The notes beneath the pieces were generated by a model. The model did not search any database. It was not told the DNA's origin and saw nothing but the letters and a program-made list of their open reading frames with translations. Position numbers and translations under genes: made by a program. From a bacterium (GTDB taxonomy: Bacteria > UBA9089 > JASEGY01), in NCBI GenBank assembly GCA_040753085.1, contig JBFMHI010000016.1:1-35565 (forward strand): 35,565 bases of DNA, written 5' to 3'. Of the stretch, positions 5,836 to 12,864 are shown in pieces. Positions within the stretch are counted from its first letter, which is position 1. The number at the start of each line of letters is the position of its first letter.

Positions 5836-5955
5836 GTAAGCGTTCAGCCACTAAGGCACAAACTCGATGCTCGATGCTCGATCCTGGATACTGGATCCTT
5901 TACCAGCATCGAAGATCGAGCATCGAGCATCCAGCATCATGTGCTGAACGGTTAC
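5836..5955. mobile_element. TIR-bounded heptamer element, short inverted copy (element C)
   Basis: Its ends are GTAAGCGTTCAGCCAC and GTGCTGAACGGTTAC. The reverse complement matches element A (2-254) with one difference seen outside the heptamer array. Here the array has only three heptamers plus the degenerate end unit, against 22 plus end unit in A. The length difference (253 versus 120 bp) is exactly 19 x 7. No target duplication is apparent. Confidence 0.8.
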
Positions 5956-6033: not shown

Positions 6034-6540
6034 ATGCCTATTCTTCCTATTAATATTTACGGTGACGCTATTCTTAAGAGAAAAGCCAAAGCGGTGACTC
6101 AAATAGACCAAAGGCTTTATGATTTGGCCGCTAATATGGCCTTCACTATGGAGTCTTATCATGGGATCGGTCTGGCTGCGCCCCAGGTTGGAGTCGGTCG
6201 AAGGATTATTGTCCTGGGGATAAATCAGGAGCAGTCAAAGGAACTCATTACCCTGGTCAATCCGGAAATAATTGAAGCTGAGGGGGAGGCGGTGCAGGAA
6301 GAGGGGTGCCTTAGCCTTCCGAAAATGAAGGGTGAAGTGAAGCGGGCACATCGTTTGATCCTTAAAGGTTGGGACTTGCAGAATAAAGAAGTGAAAATGG
6401 TGGCTACGGACCTCTTTGCCCGGGTTATCCAACACGAGATTGATCATTTAAACGGCACCCTCTTTATTGATAGGATGGATAAAGAGCAGAGAAATTTCCT
6501 TCTGACACAGTTTAAAGAAGCCCGTCGCCGGAAGAAATAA
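6034..6540 (+). CDS. def: Peptide deformylase
   Basis: A 168-residue metalloenzyme that removes the N-formyl group from new proteins in the cytoplasm. All three family motifs are intact: GIGLAAPQVG (motif 1), EEGCLSLP (motif 2, with the metal-binding Cys) and QHEIDHLNG (motif 3, HExxH with two metal-binding His and the catalytic Glu). The N-terminal PILPINIYGDAILKRKAKAV and the length are normal. ATG 6034 has no evident Shine-Dalgarno; it lies shortly after a repeat (5969-6018). It is not next to fmt, its frequent neighbour, but is followed after 26 bp by a polysaccharide deacetylase gene. Confidence 0.96.
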   Translation: MPILPINIYGDAILKRKAKAVTQIDQRLYDLAANMAFTMESYHGIGLAAPQVGVGRRIIVLGINQEQSKELITLVNPEIIEAEGEAVQEEGCLSLPKMKGEVKRAHRLILKGWDLQNKEVKMVATDLFARVIQHEIDHLNGTLFIDRMDKEQRNFLLTQFKEARRRKK

Positions 6541-6566: not shown

Positions 6567-7412
6567 ATGCTTAACGCCCTGACCATTGACGTGGAAGATT
6601 ACTTTCAGGTTTCGGCCTTCGAATCGATTGTTAGCCGCCAAGATTGGTCGCTCTACGAGTGCCGGGTGGAACCGAATACCCGGCTAATCCTCAACATCCT
6701 GCGAGAGGCGGGAGTCAAGGCCACCTTTTTCATTTTAGGCTGGGTGGCCGAGCATTTTCGCTCTCTGGTGGCTGAGATAGCCTTTGAGGGCCATGAAATT
6801 GCCAGCCATGGGTATGCCCATCAACTTATTTACAATCAATCAAAGGATGAATTCAGAGAAGATATTGAAAAATCAATCGACCTCTTAGAGGGCATTACTG
6901 GAGAACCTGTTTTAGGTTATCGGGCGCCTTCTTATTCGATTACCCGCAACTCCTGGTGGGCCTTAGATGTCCTGATCGAAGCCGGGCTGAAATATGATTC
7001 CAGCATCTTTCCTATCCATCACGACCGATATGGCATTCCTGATTTCCCCCGGTTTCCTCATCAAATAAGAGATGACTTCTATGAATTCCCCATATCTACT
7101 TTAAAGATAGGGGGAATGAATTTCCCTATGGCCGGAGGAGGCTATTTTCGGCTTTTACCCTATCCGATCACCAGATGGGCCATAAACAGGATTAATGATC
7201 GAGAGAGGCAGCCGGTTATTTTTTACCTTCATCCCTGGGAATTTGATCCTGACCAGCCAAAGCAGCCCATAGGCGGATTAAGCCGATTCAGGCATTATGT
7301 TAATCTGGATAAGACCGAGGCTAAATTCAGAAGGCTCCTGGAAGACTTCCAATTCGCGCCGGTAAAAGAGATATTGGGGATTGGGGATTGCGGATTGCGG
7401 ATTGGAGGATGA
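6567..7412 (+). CDS. XrtA/PEP-CTERM-type polysaccharide deacetylase (DUF3473)
   Basis: A 281-residue NodB-fold protein. The N-terminus LTIDVEDYFQVSAF is characteristic of the exosortase-associated deacetylase family; GHEIASHGYAH carries the metal-binding H-x3-H, and GYRAPSYS is motif 3. The C-terminal part (GGGYFRLLPYPITRWAINRIN, VIFYLHPWEFDPDQP, SRFRHYVNL) matches the DUF3473 extension. Such enzymes probably remove acetyl groups from an exopolysaccharide made by a locus linked to PEP-CTERM/exosortase sorting. No exosortase gene is present here. The last residues (about 270-281, GIGDCGLRIGG) are encoded by GCGGATT heptamers, so the native C-terminus was probably extended by the repeat. It follows def by 26 bp and may share its transcript. 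Confidence 0.9.
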   Translation: MLNALTIDVEDYFQVSAFESIVSRQDWSLYECRVEPNTRLILNILREAGVKATFFILGWVAEHFRSLVAEIAFEGHEIASHGYAHQLIYNQSKDEFREDIEKSIDLLEGITGEPVLGYRAPSYSITRNSWWALDVLIEAGLKYDSSIFPIHHDRYGIPDFPRFPHQIRDDFYEFPISTLKIGGMNFPMAGGGYFRLLPYPITRWAINRINDRERQPVIFYLHPWEFDPDQPKQPIGGLSRFRHYVNLDKTEAKFRRLLEDFQFAPVKEILGIGDCGLRIGG

Positions 7413-8324: not shown

Positions 8325-9536
8325 ATGAAGATTCTTACCCTAACCACCCTTTTCCCCAACCCGAAACAACCGCATTTGGGCCTTTTTGTCCGCGAACGGG
8401 TAAAGGCCATGAGCCATTTATGTGAGCTTAAGGTAGTGGCTCCGATCAGATGGCCCAGTCGATGGCGGATGGCGGATGGCGGATTTAGAATCCGAAATCC
8501 GAAATCTGAAATCCAAAATCCAAAATTAGAGGTTTTCCATCCCTCGGTCTTTCTGTGGCCAGGGATAGGTCGTTCCCTGCACTGGGTGGCTTATTTCCTT
8601 TCCGTAGTTAGAACCATCTCAAGACTTCGGCAGACCTTTTCTTTTGATCTTCTGGATGTGCACTATGCCTATCCGGACGGGGCGGCCGGGGTACTGTTGG
8701 GTAAATATTTGAAGGTGCCGGTAAGTATCACGGTTCGGGGAACGGACATCAACCTCTTTAGCCGGGAGAGACTTCGGGGAAGGGTGATTCAATGGGCTTT
8801 AGTTGAAGCCGATCTGGTTATTGCCGTTTCCGTTGATTTAGGGAGAAAAGTAGTTGATCTGGGGGTTAGCCCTGAAAAGGTGAAGATTATTCCTAATGGG
8901 GTCGATTCAGAGAAATTTTATCCGGTAAACCCTGCGGAGGCGAGGAGGCAGTTGGGATTGTCCTCTGAGTCTTTGGTCATTCTTTCTGTGGCTAATTTGA
9001 TAAAGACAAAGGGGATTCATCATATTATCGAGGCGGTGAAGGAAGTTAGGGAGAAAGGGAAAGAGGTGAATTTAATTATTGTAGGTGAAGGCCAGGCCAG
9101 GCCGGGTTTGGAAAGGCAAATCAGAGACCTGGGCTTGATTGATTCGGTTAAACTTATTGGAGCTTGCGAACAGACTCAATTATATCTCTGGTATAATGCC
9201 GCTAACCTTTTCTGTTTGGCCTCTTATCGGGAGGGTTGTCCTAATGTCTTGCTGGAGGCATTAGCCTGCGGCTGTCCGGTGGCGGCTGTTGAGGTGGGTG
9301 GTGTGCCTGAGATTATTACTTCTGAAGACTATGGCCTTCTGGTAAAGAGTCCTCCTGATCGGGGCAGCCTGTCAGAGGCTATCTGGAAGGCCTTGAATAA
9401 AGACTGGGATAGAGAAAAGCTAATTAGCTATGCCCGGGAAAGGACCTGGGATAAGGTAGCCGAGCAGGTTATGATAGAATTCAATCAGATTGCGGATTGC
9501 GAATCGCGAATCGCGAATTGCGAATTACGGATTTAG
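8325..9536 (+). CDS. GT4-family glycosyltransferase with repeat-encoded insertion
   Basis: About 403 residues from ATG 8325 (MKILTLTTLFPNPKQPHLG); the longer frame from 8256 is translated repeat. It probably transfers a sugar from a nucleotide donor during exopolysaccharide or cell-surface glycan synthesis at the cytoplasmic membrane. The GT-B fold is clear: the N-terminal QPHLGLFVRERVKAM, DVHYAYPDGAAGVLL, VRGTDINLF, then the donor domain PNGVDSEKFYP, LSVANLIKTKG, IVGEGQ, and the EX7E motif REGCPNVLLEALACGCPVAAVEVGGVPEII. Residues about 46-68 (MADGGFRIRNPKSEIQNPK) are encoded by a palindromic repeat (8461-8528) where homologues have a short variable loop. The C-terminal tail from about residue 387 is again repeat-encoded, and the stop TAG (9534-9536) is part of the repeat core. 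Confidence 0.92.
   Translation: MKILTLTTLFPNPKQPHLGLFVRERVKAMSHLCELKVVAPIRWPSRWRMADGGFRIRNPKSEIQNPKLEVFHPSVFLWPGIGRSLHWVAYFLSVVRTISRLRQTFSFDLLDVHYAYPDGAAGVLLGKYLKVPVSITVRGTDINLFSRERLRGRVIQWALVEADLVIAVSVDLGRKVVDLGVSPEKVKIIPNGVDSEKFYPVNPAEARRQLGLSSESLVILSVANLIKTKGIHHIIEAVKEVREKGKEVNLIIVGEGQARPGLERQIRDLGLIDSVKLIGACEQTQLYLWYNAANLFCLASYREGCPNVLLEALACGCPVAAVEVGGVPEIITSEDYGLLVKSPPDRGSLSEAIWKALNKDWDREKLISYARERTWDKVAEQVMIEFNQIADCESRIANCELRI
8461..8528. repeat. Palindromic heptamer element inserted in the GT4 gene
   Basis: ATGGCGG heptamers run into the core GGATTTAGAATCCGAAATCC and then GAAATC/AAAATCC heptamers. The element is in frame with the glycosyltransferase and contains no stop in that frame. 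The same core is at 2945, 9527 and 10581. Confidence 0.88.
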
Positions 9537-9711
9537 AATTCGAAATCCAAAATCCGAAATCTGCAATCGGTATGTTCGCAATCCGCAATCCGCGATTCGC
9601 AATCCGCGATCCGCAATTCGCAATCCGCAATCCGCAATTCGCAATCCGCGATTCGCAATCCGCGATCCGCAATCCGCGATCCGCGATTCGCGATTCGCAA
9701 TCCGCAATCCA
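9484..9711. repeat. Long inverted GCGGATT / AATCCGC heptamer array
   Basis: About 30 imperfect heptamers. The first 45 bp are GCGGATT/GCGAATC; after the core GGATTTAGAATTCGAAATCC the strand sense flips to AATCCGC/GATTCGC for over 140 bp. The array spans the end of the glycosyltransferase gene and reaches the start codon of the next gene (9712). Heptamers are open in all six frames, so ORFs appear here on both strands. Confidence 0.93.
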
Positions 9712-10818
9712 ATGTATGTTTTAATCACCGTTGACACCGAATCCAGTAAACGTCGAGGCAAGCCCTTGCCTTATGAACAGATGGTCTATGGCCGGGTAGG
9801 GGAAGAGTGCTTCGGTATTCCAAAGATTATTTCTATCTGTAATCAATATGGGCTGGGGGCTACCTTTTTTGTCAGTGTCTTTGAGGCCCAGCATTATGGG
9901 GCAGACCTTATCAAAAAGACCTGCTTAGATATAGCTGAGGCAGGCCATGATGTTCAGCTCCATACCCATCCTAACTGGATATATTCGGATTGGCTTATGT
10001 GGCAATATCCCTTGGAGAGGCAGATAGAGCTGATCAAAAGGGGCAAGGAGATGCTTTGCCAATTTTTGGGGGAACCGCCCATTGCCCATCGGGCCGGAGC
10101 ATTTGGAGCGGATTTTAATACCTTGAAGGCCCTGGCCGCCAACGCCATCCCGATCGATTCCTCTTTTTTCTTTGGGTATCCTTATTGCCGGCTTACCTCG
10201 CCACCGCTCTCCAAAAACGGCATATCAGTAATCAGCGGAATGCAGATGGCGGCATCCGCCATCCGCCATTCGCCATCGGCTAATGGAGTGGTGGAGATAC
10301 CGCCCACAATTTTTACTGAAATAAAATTAGGTTCCTTTAAGCGCTACCGGAACCTTGATCCCTACACGACTTCTTTGCCTGAGATGATTCGAGTGGTTAA
10401 GCAGGCCAAGGAGAGAGGCTTGAAGACCGTGGTGGTCTTGCTGCACAGTTTTACCTTTTTAAGGATGGACAGGGATCGAACCAGATTTGAACCGGACTGG
10501 AAGGACATTAAGAAATTCGACCAGTTTTGTGCCTGGCTCAAAGGCGAGCCGGGGATAGAGGTGGTCACCATGAAACAGATTGCGGATTTAGAATCCGAAA
10601 TCCGCAATCCGAAATCCGCAATCAGTATGTCCGCAATCCGCCATCCAAAATCCGAAATCGAAGATGACCTGGTGCCTCATCCGGGTATGCCCTATACCCT
10701 TATGCGGTCTTTTACTCACTTCCGAAAGAGCCGGAAAAACAAACTGGTGGCCATATTTAGTCTGAGCACCGGTCTATTTCTCCTGATGTTTCTCGGGTGG
10801 CTTATTGGATTTCGGTAA
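9712..10818 (+). CDS. Polysaccharide deacetylase-like protein with C-terminal membrane helix
   Basis: About 368 residues from ATG 9712 (MYVLITVDTESSKRRGK). The frame is open through the upstream array to 9490, but that part is pure repeat; no Shine-Dalgarno is seen at either start. NodB-like motifs: TVDTE (motif 1), DVQLHTHPNW (H-x-H metal site), HRAGAFGAD (motif 3) and VVVLLHSFTFL (motif 5), so it probably acts on an acetylated or otherwise modified glycan. Residues about 178-190 (AASAIRHSPSA) and 289-318 (DLESEIRNPKSAISMSAIRHPKSE) are encoded by heptamer repeats. A C-terminal hydrophobic helix (LVAIFSLSTGLFLLMFLGWLIGF) should anchor it. The TAA stop lies inside element E; without that insertion the frame would continue to 10987. 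Confidence 0.82.
   Translation: MYVLITVDTESSKRRGKPLPYEQMVYGRVGEECFGIPKIISICNQYGLGATFFVSVFEAQHYGADLIKKTCLDIAEAGHDVQLHTHPNWIYSDWLMWQYPLERQIELIKRGKEMLCQFLGEPPIAHRAGAFGADFNTLKALAANAIPIDSSFFFGYPYCRLTSPPLSKNGISVISGMQMAASAIRHSPSANGVVEIPPTIFTEIKLGSFKRYRNLDPYTTSLPEMIRVVKQAKERGLKTVVVLLHSFTFLRMDRDRTRFEPDWKDIKKFDQFCAWLKGEPGIEVVTMKQIADLESEIRNPKSAISMSAIRHPKSEIEDDLVPHPGMPYTLMRSFTHFRKSRKNKLVAIFSLSTGLFLLMFLGWLIGFR
10244..10280. repeat. GATGGCGG/CCGCCATC repeat inside deacetylase gene
   Basis: GATGGCGG is followed by the inverted heptamers CCGCCAT, CCGCCAT, TCGCCAT. The reading frame passes through without a stop, giving AASAIRHSPSA. It is flanked by ordinary deacetylase sequence on both sides. Confidence 0.75.
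10576..10664. repeat. Palindromic heptamer element near the 3' end of deacetylase gene
   Basis: GCGGATTTAGAATCCGAAAT is followed by CCGCAAT/CCGAAAT heptamers. The same core as at 8481 is here read in a different frame (ADLESEIRNP rather than GFRIRNP). It lies between the NodB-like domain and the membrane helix. Confidence 0.88.
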
Positions 10819-10906
10819 TCGTTCACCACAGAGATACAGAGACATAGAGAATGATTTTAGATTTTTCTCAGTGTCTCTGTGTCTCCGTGGTGAGGTGAAC
10901 GGTTAC
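10815..10906. mobile_element. 92-bp MITE-like element with 8-bp target duplication (element E)
   Basis: Ends GTAATCGTTCACCACAGAGA and (right, reverse-complemented) GTAACCGTTCACCTCACCAC are inverted repeats, continuing as AYACAGAGACA on both arms with a 5-bp offset. GGATTTCG occurs flush on both sides (10807-10814 and 10907-10914), as expected for an 8-bp target duplication. The left end GTAA supplies the TAA stop of the deacetylase gene. No transposase is encoded; the GTAAC-GTTCA ends match elements A and C, so a shared mobilising enzyme is plausible. Confidence 0.8.
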
Positions 10907-12687: not shown

Positions 12688-12864
12688 CAATAGGCGATAG
12701 GCAATAGTCAATAGCCAGTAGGTAATAGCCAATAGGCAATAACTAATAGGCAATAGCCGATAGGTAATAGCCAGTAGCCAATAGTCCTTTTGGTCCTTTT
12801 GGTCCCTTTGGTCCTTTTGGTCCCTTTGGTCCTTTTGGTCCCTTTGAGTTAAAGAGCTCTTGGC
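12688..12864. repeat. Composite repeat: CAATAGC + GTCCTTTTG + TTAAAGAGC, third copy
   Basis: About fourteen CAATAGC-type heptamers with many substitutions, then about seven nonamers GTCCTTTTG/GTCCCTTTG, then GAGTTAAAGAGCTCTTGGC. It has the same order as the other two copies and fills most of the space between 12063-12608 and the giant gene. TAGCGCG TAGCGCA near 12880 is one more tandem 7-mer. Confidence 0.88.

Follow-up and report, generated by a model that had tools for sequence, protein, structure and literature searches.

Results

The window, by which is meant the whole analysed stretch of 35,565 nucleotides, contains a glycosyltransferase gene followed by a polysaccharide deacetylase gene, with arrays of 7-bp units inside and around both. 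The features are listed below, with the strand where one applies.

2923-2977: intergenic inverted heptamer array that holds the core 2945-2964
7373-7412, + strand: heptamer array forming the C-terminal tail ILGIGDCGLRIGG of an XrtA-type deacetylase
8325-9536, + strand: gene for a family-4 (GT-B) glycosyltransferase, which bears the first array
8461-8527, + strand: inverted heptamer array, (GATGGCG)3 / core 8481-8500 / (AATCCGA)n, translated in frame as GGFRIRNPKSEIQNPK
9488-9710, + strand: long heptamer array with the core 9529-9548
9712-10818, + strand: polysaccharide deacetylase gene (PF01522) with two further insertions
10241-10288, + strand: 48-nt in-frame insertion of CGCCATC heptamers, peptide approximately SGMQMAASAIRHSPSA, edges uncertain by a few bases
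10579-10659, + strand: heptamer array with the core 10584-10603, translated as ADLESEIRNPKSAISMSAIRHPKSEI
10815-10906: 92-bp MITE with the ends GTAATCGTTCA...TGAACGGTTAC and an 8-bp duplication, GGATTTCG

The core and its reading frames

The core GGATTTAGAATYYGAAATCC is found exactly, on the + strand, at 2945-2964, 8481-8500, 9529-9548 and 10584-10603, and dinucleotide shuffles with up to three mismatches allowed gave a mean of 0.01 matches. The original prediction had placed three copies in coding DNA; the position 8481 is correct, 9527 and 10581 should read 9529 and 10584, and the intergenic copy at 2945 had been overlooked. The translation of the coding copies in three different frames holds: the codon offset is 0 for the copy at 8481 in the glycosyltransferase (GFRIRNPKSE), 1 for the copy at 9529 at the end of the same protein (ELRI followed by a stop, which is the core's own TAG) and 2 for the copy at 10584 in the deacetylase (ADLESEIRNP). 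One extra near-exact core is present in the whole genome, at C1:27921, where it lies at the N-terminus of leucyl-tRNA synthetase and is read as MNLESEIPGTHEVGAKSEIRNPKSEM; the reversed control gave no match.

The core is not a discrete palindromic element but the turning point between a 7-bp array and its reverse complement, with the architecture (GATTNCG)n, GATT-TAG-AATC, (CGNAATC)n, that is, a tandem array that changes strand. Tandem 7-bp units flank every core and switch strand at it, a feature that the first reading of the sequence had passed over.

The glycosyltransferase and deacetylase genes

The array at 9488-9710 extends the glycosyltransferase C-terminally by about 17 residues, supplies its TAG stop and fills the spacer before the deacetylase gene. 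The gene order is the same in G001 (MAG Yes70-08), the sole congener among the genomes searched, where the glycosyltransferase is 78% and the deacetylase 80% identical to the proteins here. Inverted heptamer arrays are also found in the congener at residues ~46-68 of the glycosyltransferase, with other arms and another length, and at residues 289-318 of the deacetylase, with other arms, length and unit. The congener's array at the end of the XrtA-type deacetylase has no stop, and the reading frame continues into the glycosyltransferase; the two proteins are joined via the array in one open frame of 784 codons (L052:4486-6840).

Residues ~46-68 of the glycosyltransferase had been expected to be extra, but they add no length. 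At this site the distant homologues G016 and G004 carry their own native loop, unrelated but of similar size, and the array has therefore taken over a variable loop. The match to the TuaC family model (1-367 on 1-362) is in keeping with this. The structure model of the glycosyltransferase, built from two sequences, has a pLDDT of 39 and is unusable. No relatives of this protein were found in viral contigs.

In the deacetylase, an extra segment was confirmed, since the 48-nt insert at 10241-10288 is cleanly missing from four homologues (that of the congener G001 and the distant ones G017, G011 and G059). The deacetylase model, from six sequences (pTM 0.67), has a confident catalytic core, and a Foldseek search with it gave CE4/polysaccharide deacetylases as top matches. 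Confidence falls below 50 at 154-212 and 296-341, and both inserts lie within or overlap these stretches, though the thin six-sequence alignment may partly cause the low confidence.

Compared with the congener, the flanks of the arrays have dN 0.121 and dS 0.592 in the glycosyltransferase (dN/dS ~0.20) and dN 0.094 and dS 0.708 in the deacetylase (dN/dS ~0.13). Purifying selection had been predicted for the flanks only. It is seen there, and in the aligned array codons dN is 0.24 and 0.61, 2-6 times above the flanks, values that come from few codons and an uncertain alignment.

A genome-wide population of heptamer arrays

Period-7 arrays number 304 in a sample of 1.19 Mb from the source genome (G000) and 355 in 1.11 Mb from the congener, and the control periods 5, 6, 10, 11 and 13 gave 0-3 each in the former sample. 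The unit sequences are numerous, the commonest being AGCATCG in G000 and AATCCGC in G001. By rough gene calls of our own, ~24-31% of the spacers between tandem genes contain an array. The tandem repetition at a unit length of 7 is that of a heptanucleotide simple sequence repeat. Direct-only arrays made by slippage do not describe the population, because arrays at most 25 nt apart are inverted rather than direct in a ratio of 60:6 in G000 and 36:10 in G001. Strong hairpins are predicted, with energies of -25.6 kcal/mol for 68 nt and -105.2 kcal/mol for 224 nt.

Period 9 ranks second among short periods in the sampled genome, and 9-bp arrays of the TAGTCCTTT type lie beside AATAGCC heptamers at 539-650 and 12773-12840 of the window.

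The perfect 21-mer (AATCCGC)3 occurs in 17 of 384 genomes, from many unrelated families (reversed control 0); the phenomenon is therefore not private to the genus. Arrays of (AATCCGC)3 were also seen in 46 stretches of IMG/VR contigs (L224-L269), some of which have several arrays on both strands. Long open frames cover many of these arrays, but such frames also arise by chance in GC-rich DNA, and a coding role was not accepted for them. Selection for stop-free units was likewise considered and set aside: 75% of arrays are open on both strands, and chance would give about half by a rough estimate. Published mention of the peptides or repeat strings was not found in the literature searched.

Arrays inside conserved proteins

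The two samples together hold 543 array clusters. For 26 of them, the sequence on either side matches a single homologous protein from the other genome of the pair. The frame is kept in 19 of these against an expectation of one third (p = 4e-5). One of the seven cases of lost frame is an antisense artefact, and several look like real interruptions. Arrays of the RATYYGM family, with membership assigned by hand from the listed sequences, make up 13 of the 19 frame-keeping cases compared with 153 of the 543 clusters (p = 2e-4).

The congener has arrays in the genes for LeuRS, MurB, Mfd and NagZ (a GH3 beta-N-acetylhexosaminidase), all with confirmed families. Comparisons with solved structures show that 35 residues replace 3 of Thermus LeuRS (query 260/296, Thermus 236/240), that MurB has 48 residues where S. 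aureus MurB has 12, and that the GH3 enzyme has ~30 added residues directly after TDDLEMGAI. Insertions tolerated by proteins, as first proposed, are thus supported, in that extra or replaced DNA keeps the frame in otherwise conserved proteins.

The glycosyltransferase loops in G016 and G004 would suit the view that the segments are native loops turned repetitive by slippage, with no insertion. This is very unlikely: the same units recur between genes at hundreds of places and also within genes that are not related, homologues lack the LeuRS and MurB segments and the 48-nt segment of the deacetylase, and slippage alone does not produce inverted arms. The predicted hairpins might also suggest that the arrays are excised from the transcript or bypassed during translation, like the hop/byp elements of yeast mitochondria, leaving proteins without them. 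The frame would then be irrelevant, yet it is mostly kept, and the family whose main units are stop-free is the one over-represented in genes. Such skipping is hardly credible, and the frame conservation argues that the arrays stay in the mRNA and are translated.

Two further kinds of sequence were noted. An 18-bp repeat, GGCCGAGCCGGCCTGGCG, is inserted in several proteins of the congener in the frames GRAGLA, AEPAWR and PARPAR (L052 ~6235-6310 and ~6615-6700; L174, L170 and L217). Positions 12933-34445 of the window form a single open frame of 7170 codons. It encodes a giant protein of surface type, repetitive in sequence, to which the congener has a partial homologue in L139.

MITEs and candidate array-making enzymes

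The MITE at 10815-10906 has entered the deacetylase gene at its final codons, and the MITE's first bases supply the TAA stop. It is a neighbour, separate from the heptamer arrays described here. It belongs to a large family with the ends GTAACCGTTCA...TGAACGGTTAC and 8-bp target duplications, of which 83 inward pairs were found in the 1.19 Mb. Other examples are L059:1900-2125, L080:3739-3916 and, in the window, 2-254 and 5836-5955; the interiors are heptamer arrays or unrelated sequence.

In both genomes three heptamer families sit between inverted ends with 8-bp duplications, namely AGSATCG with GTAACCGTTCA, AACYTAC with GTATCCTCTTCAAA and AAATTRG with GTAATTGCTCAATA. The in-gene arrays could, on this view, be the interiors of MITEs that a transposase had mobilised and whose ends have since degenerated. 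Clusters of RATYYGM arrays, however, have no common ends (the best end-like word is found in 4 of 47 in G000 and 10 of 106 in G001), and their edges give no clear signal of target duplication, with 6 shared 8-mers against 3.0 expected in G000 and 9 against 5.5 in G001. The main MITE ends, moreover, begin with GTAA and would often add a stop inside genes. A MITE origin is decidedly unlikely.

G000, which is 97% complete, contains no match to the reverse transcriptase family RVT_1 (PF00078; DGR, retron-like) or to the Y1 transposase family of the RAYT type (PF01797; REP/BIME), and both were rejected as makers of the arrays. No gene or enzyme that makes them was found.

Comparison with Rickettsia-type palindromic elements

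The original prediction had likened the insertions to Rickettsia palindromic elements (RPEs). If the core were of this type, it would be a discrete transposing palindrome inserted whole at each site. Presence in frame inside genes is a hallmark of RPEs (PMC10969869) and is found here, as is one palindrome in different frames, which is partly trivial for a stop-free heptamer. The segments also resemble each other more than a bare unit demands: 2925-2977 and 8461-8513 are 89% alike, and 9524-9604 and 10579-10659, which from their sequence look like copies of one another, are 84% identical over 81 nt. On the other hand, there are only ~5 core copies genome-wide, four of them within this 8-kb stretch. 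An RPE is a discrete element of conserved sequence and extent, but in the arms here unit, number and length all change from site to site, and even between the congeners at the same site, and the shared 8-mers at the edges are in no clear excess. The RPE interpretation of the core is thus unlikely.

A second, dispersed palindrome, CGGGTACCCACGAAGTGGGTGC, found amid RATYYGM units, fits an RPE much better than the core does. It has 35 copies in the G000 sample (reversed control 0), for example at L054:7126, L065:11475 and L084:11708-12101. Among the 34 copies with full flanks 29 lie inside gene calls, and 21 of these 29 are read in the SAIPGTHEVGA frame, the rest in other frames or on the opposite strand. 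The bias is significant for one frame of six (p = 5e-11), a value that ignores shared ancestry of the copies. A search for the 21-base palindrome pattern with up to two mismatches gave 78 strand-hits across all of G000 and 35 across G001, counts in which a near-palindrome may score on both strands. The pattern is found in 7 of 285 other genomes, three of which, from other families, have 20, 6 and 4 matches, and the reversed control gave one match in total. The distant genomes G048, G055 and G103 are among those with the palindrome (CGGGTACCC). The palindrome GGGTACCC... was not found in viral contigs, nor its element in plasmids.

Discussion

The in-gene repeats probably belong to a large population of inverted heptanucleotide arrays (degenerate unit RATYYGM) spread through the genome, and are probably translated and tolerated within proteins, a reading to which we give a probability of about 0.7. 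It builds on the fixed 7-bp unit and its inversion, the preserved frames, the occurrence in housekeeping enzymes and the congener sites that are shared but have different arms.

Because 7 leaves a remainder of one when divided by three, an array of a stop-free heptamer reads as a single heptapeptide whichever frame is used (NPQSAIR forward and ADCGLRI in reverse for the unit concerned). The tolerance in proteins is attributed to these two properties, and the three frames of the core are largely explained in the same way. Arrays can therefore enter genes, gene ends and gene borders, and copying, inversion and expansion should be lethal less often than for other DNA. To persist in a gene an array would need a length that keeps the frame, a stop-free unit and a site at a loop, domain junction or terminus. 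The arrays might arise by local copying or by template switching (foldback inversion) at hairpins, which is conjecture, and may then turn over through slippage and unequal exchange. A wider and more speculative idea, which we consider rather improbable, is that inverted 7-bp arrays are produced, from a common vocabulary of units, by an unrecognised process that crosses phyla. As the units are open in all frames, this process would supply essential proteins with new linkers and tails in frame, and with gene fusions.

Palindromes that encode parts of proteins have been described in Rickettsia, Wolbachia and Methanocaldococcus (PMC10969869, PMC2996958). Like these, the arrays are found in frame in unrelated and often housekeeping genes, the known palindromes being situated in unstructured parts of the proteins. 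They are set apart from RPEs by description, being 7-bp tandem arrays with variable arms and no fixed element of ~150 bp. The host also differs from Rickettsia and Wolbachia in being an uncultured bacterium known from MAGs, with no sign of endosymbiosis. PARCELs are similar in that palindromic DNA encodes protein segments and is spread across taxa, but they are 25-residue tandem repeats linked to membrane proteins (PMC2996958).

Heptanucleotide repeats have been described as TAACTGA in Beggiatoaceae, GGGAATC in Xanthomonas and STRR in cyanobacteria, and an earlier survey is reported to have found heptanucleotides to be the commonest class of these repeats in most of its genomes (PMC4679880, PMC4692102). 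The arrays here share with them the seven-base unit and the genome-wide presence at many loci. The TAACTGA sets of BOGUAY include one inverted set, 10 of 170 are interior to ORFs and the forward unit has stops. The TAACTGA sets are mostly direct and mostly outside genes, whereas here neighbouring arrays are mostly inverted, many units are in use and arrays are found in frame within essential genes. Typical MITEs enclose some of this genome's heptamer arrays, but those reported here show neither common inverted ends nor a clear signal of target duplication. What distinguishes the present arrays from these precedents is a combination of features: they are inverted and variable, and they lie in frame within housekeeping genes of a bacterium that has not been cultured.

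Until now, descriptions of repeat DNA inserted into working proteins have come mostly from Rickettsia, Wolbachia and one archaeon. The present arrays form another, abundant class of repeat, which enters enzymes such as leucyl-tRNA synthetase and MurB. Stretches such as NPQSAIR or SIEHRAS in predicted proteins are probably repeat DNA rather than domains. With the 21-mer present across many genomes, the origin of the heptamer arrays is a question open to comparative genomics and proteomics.
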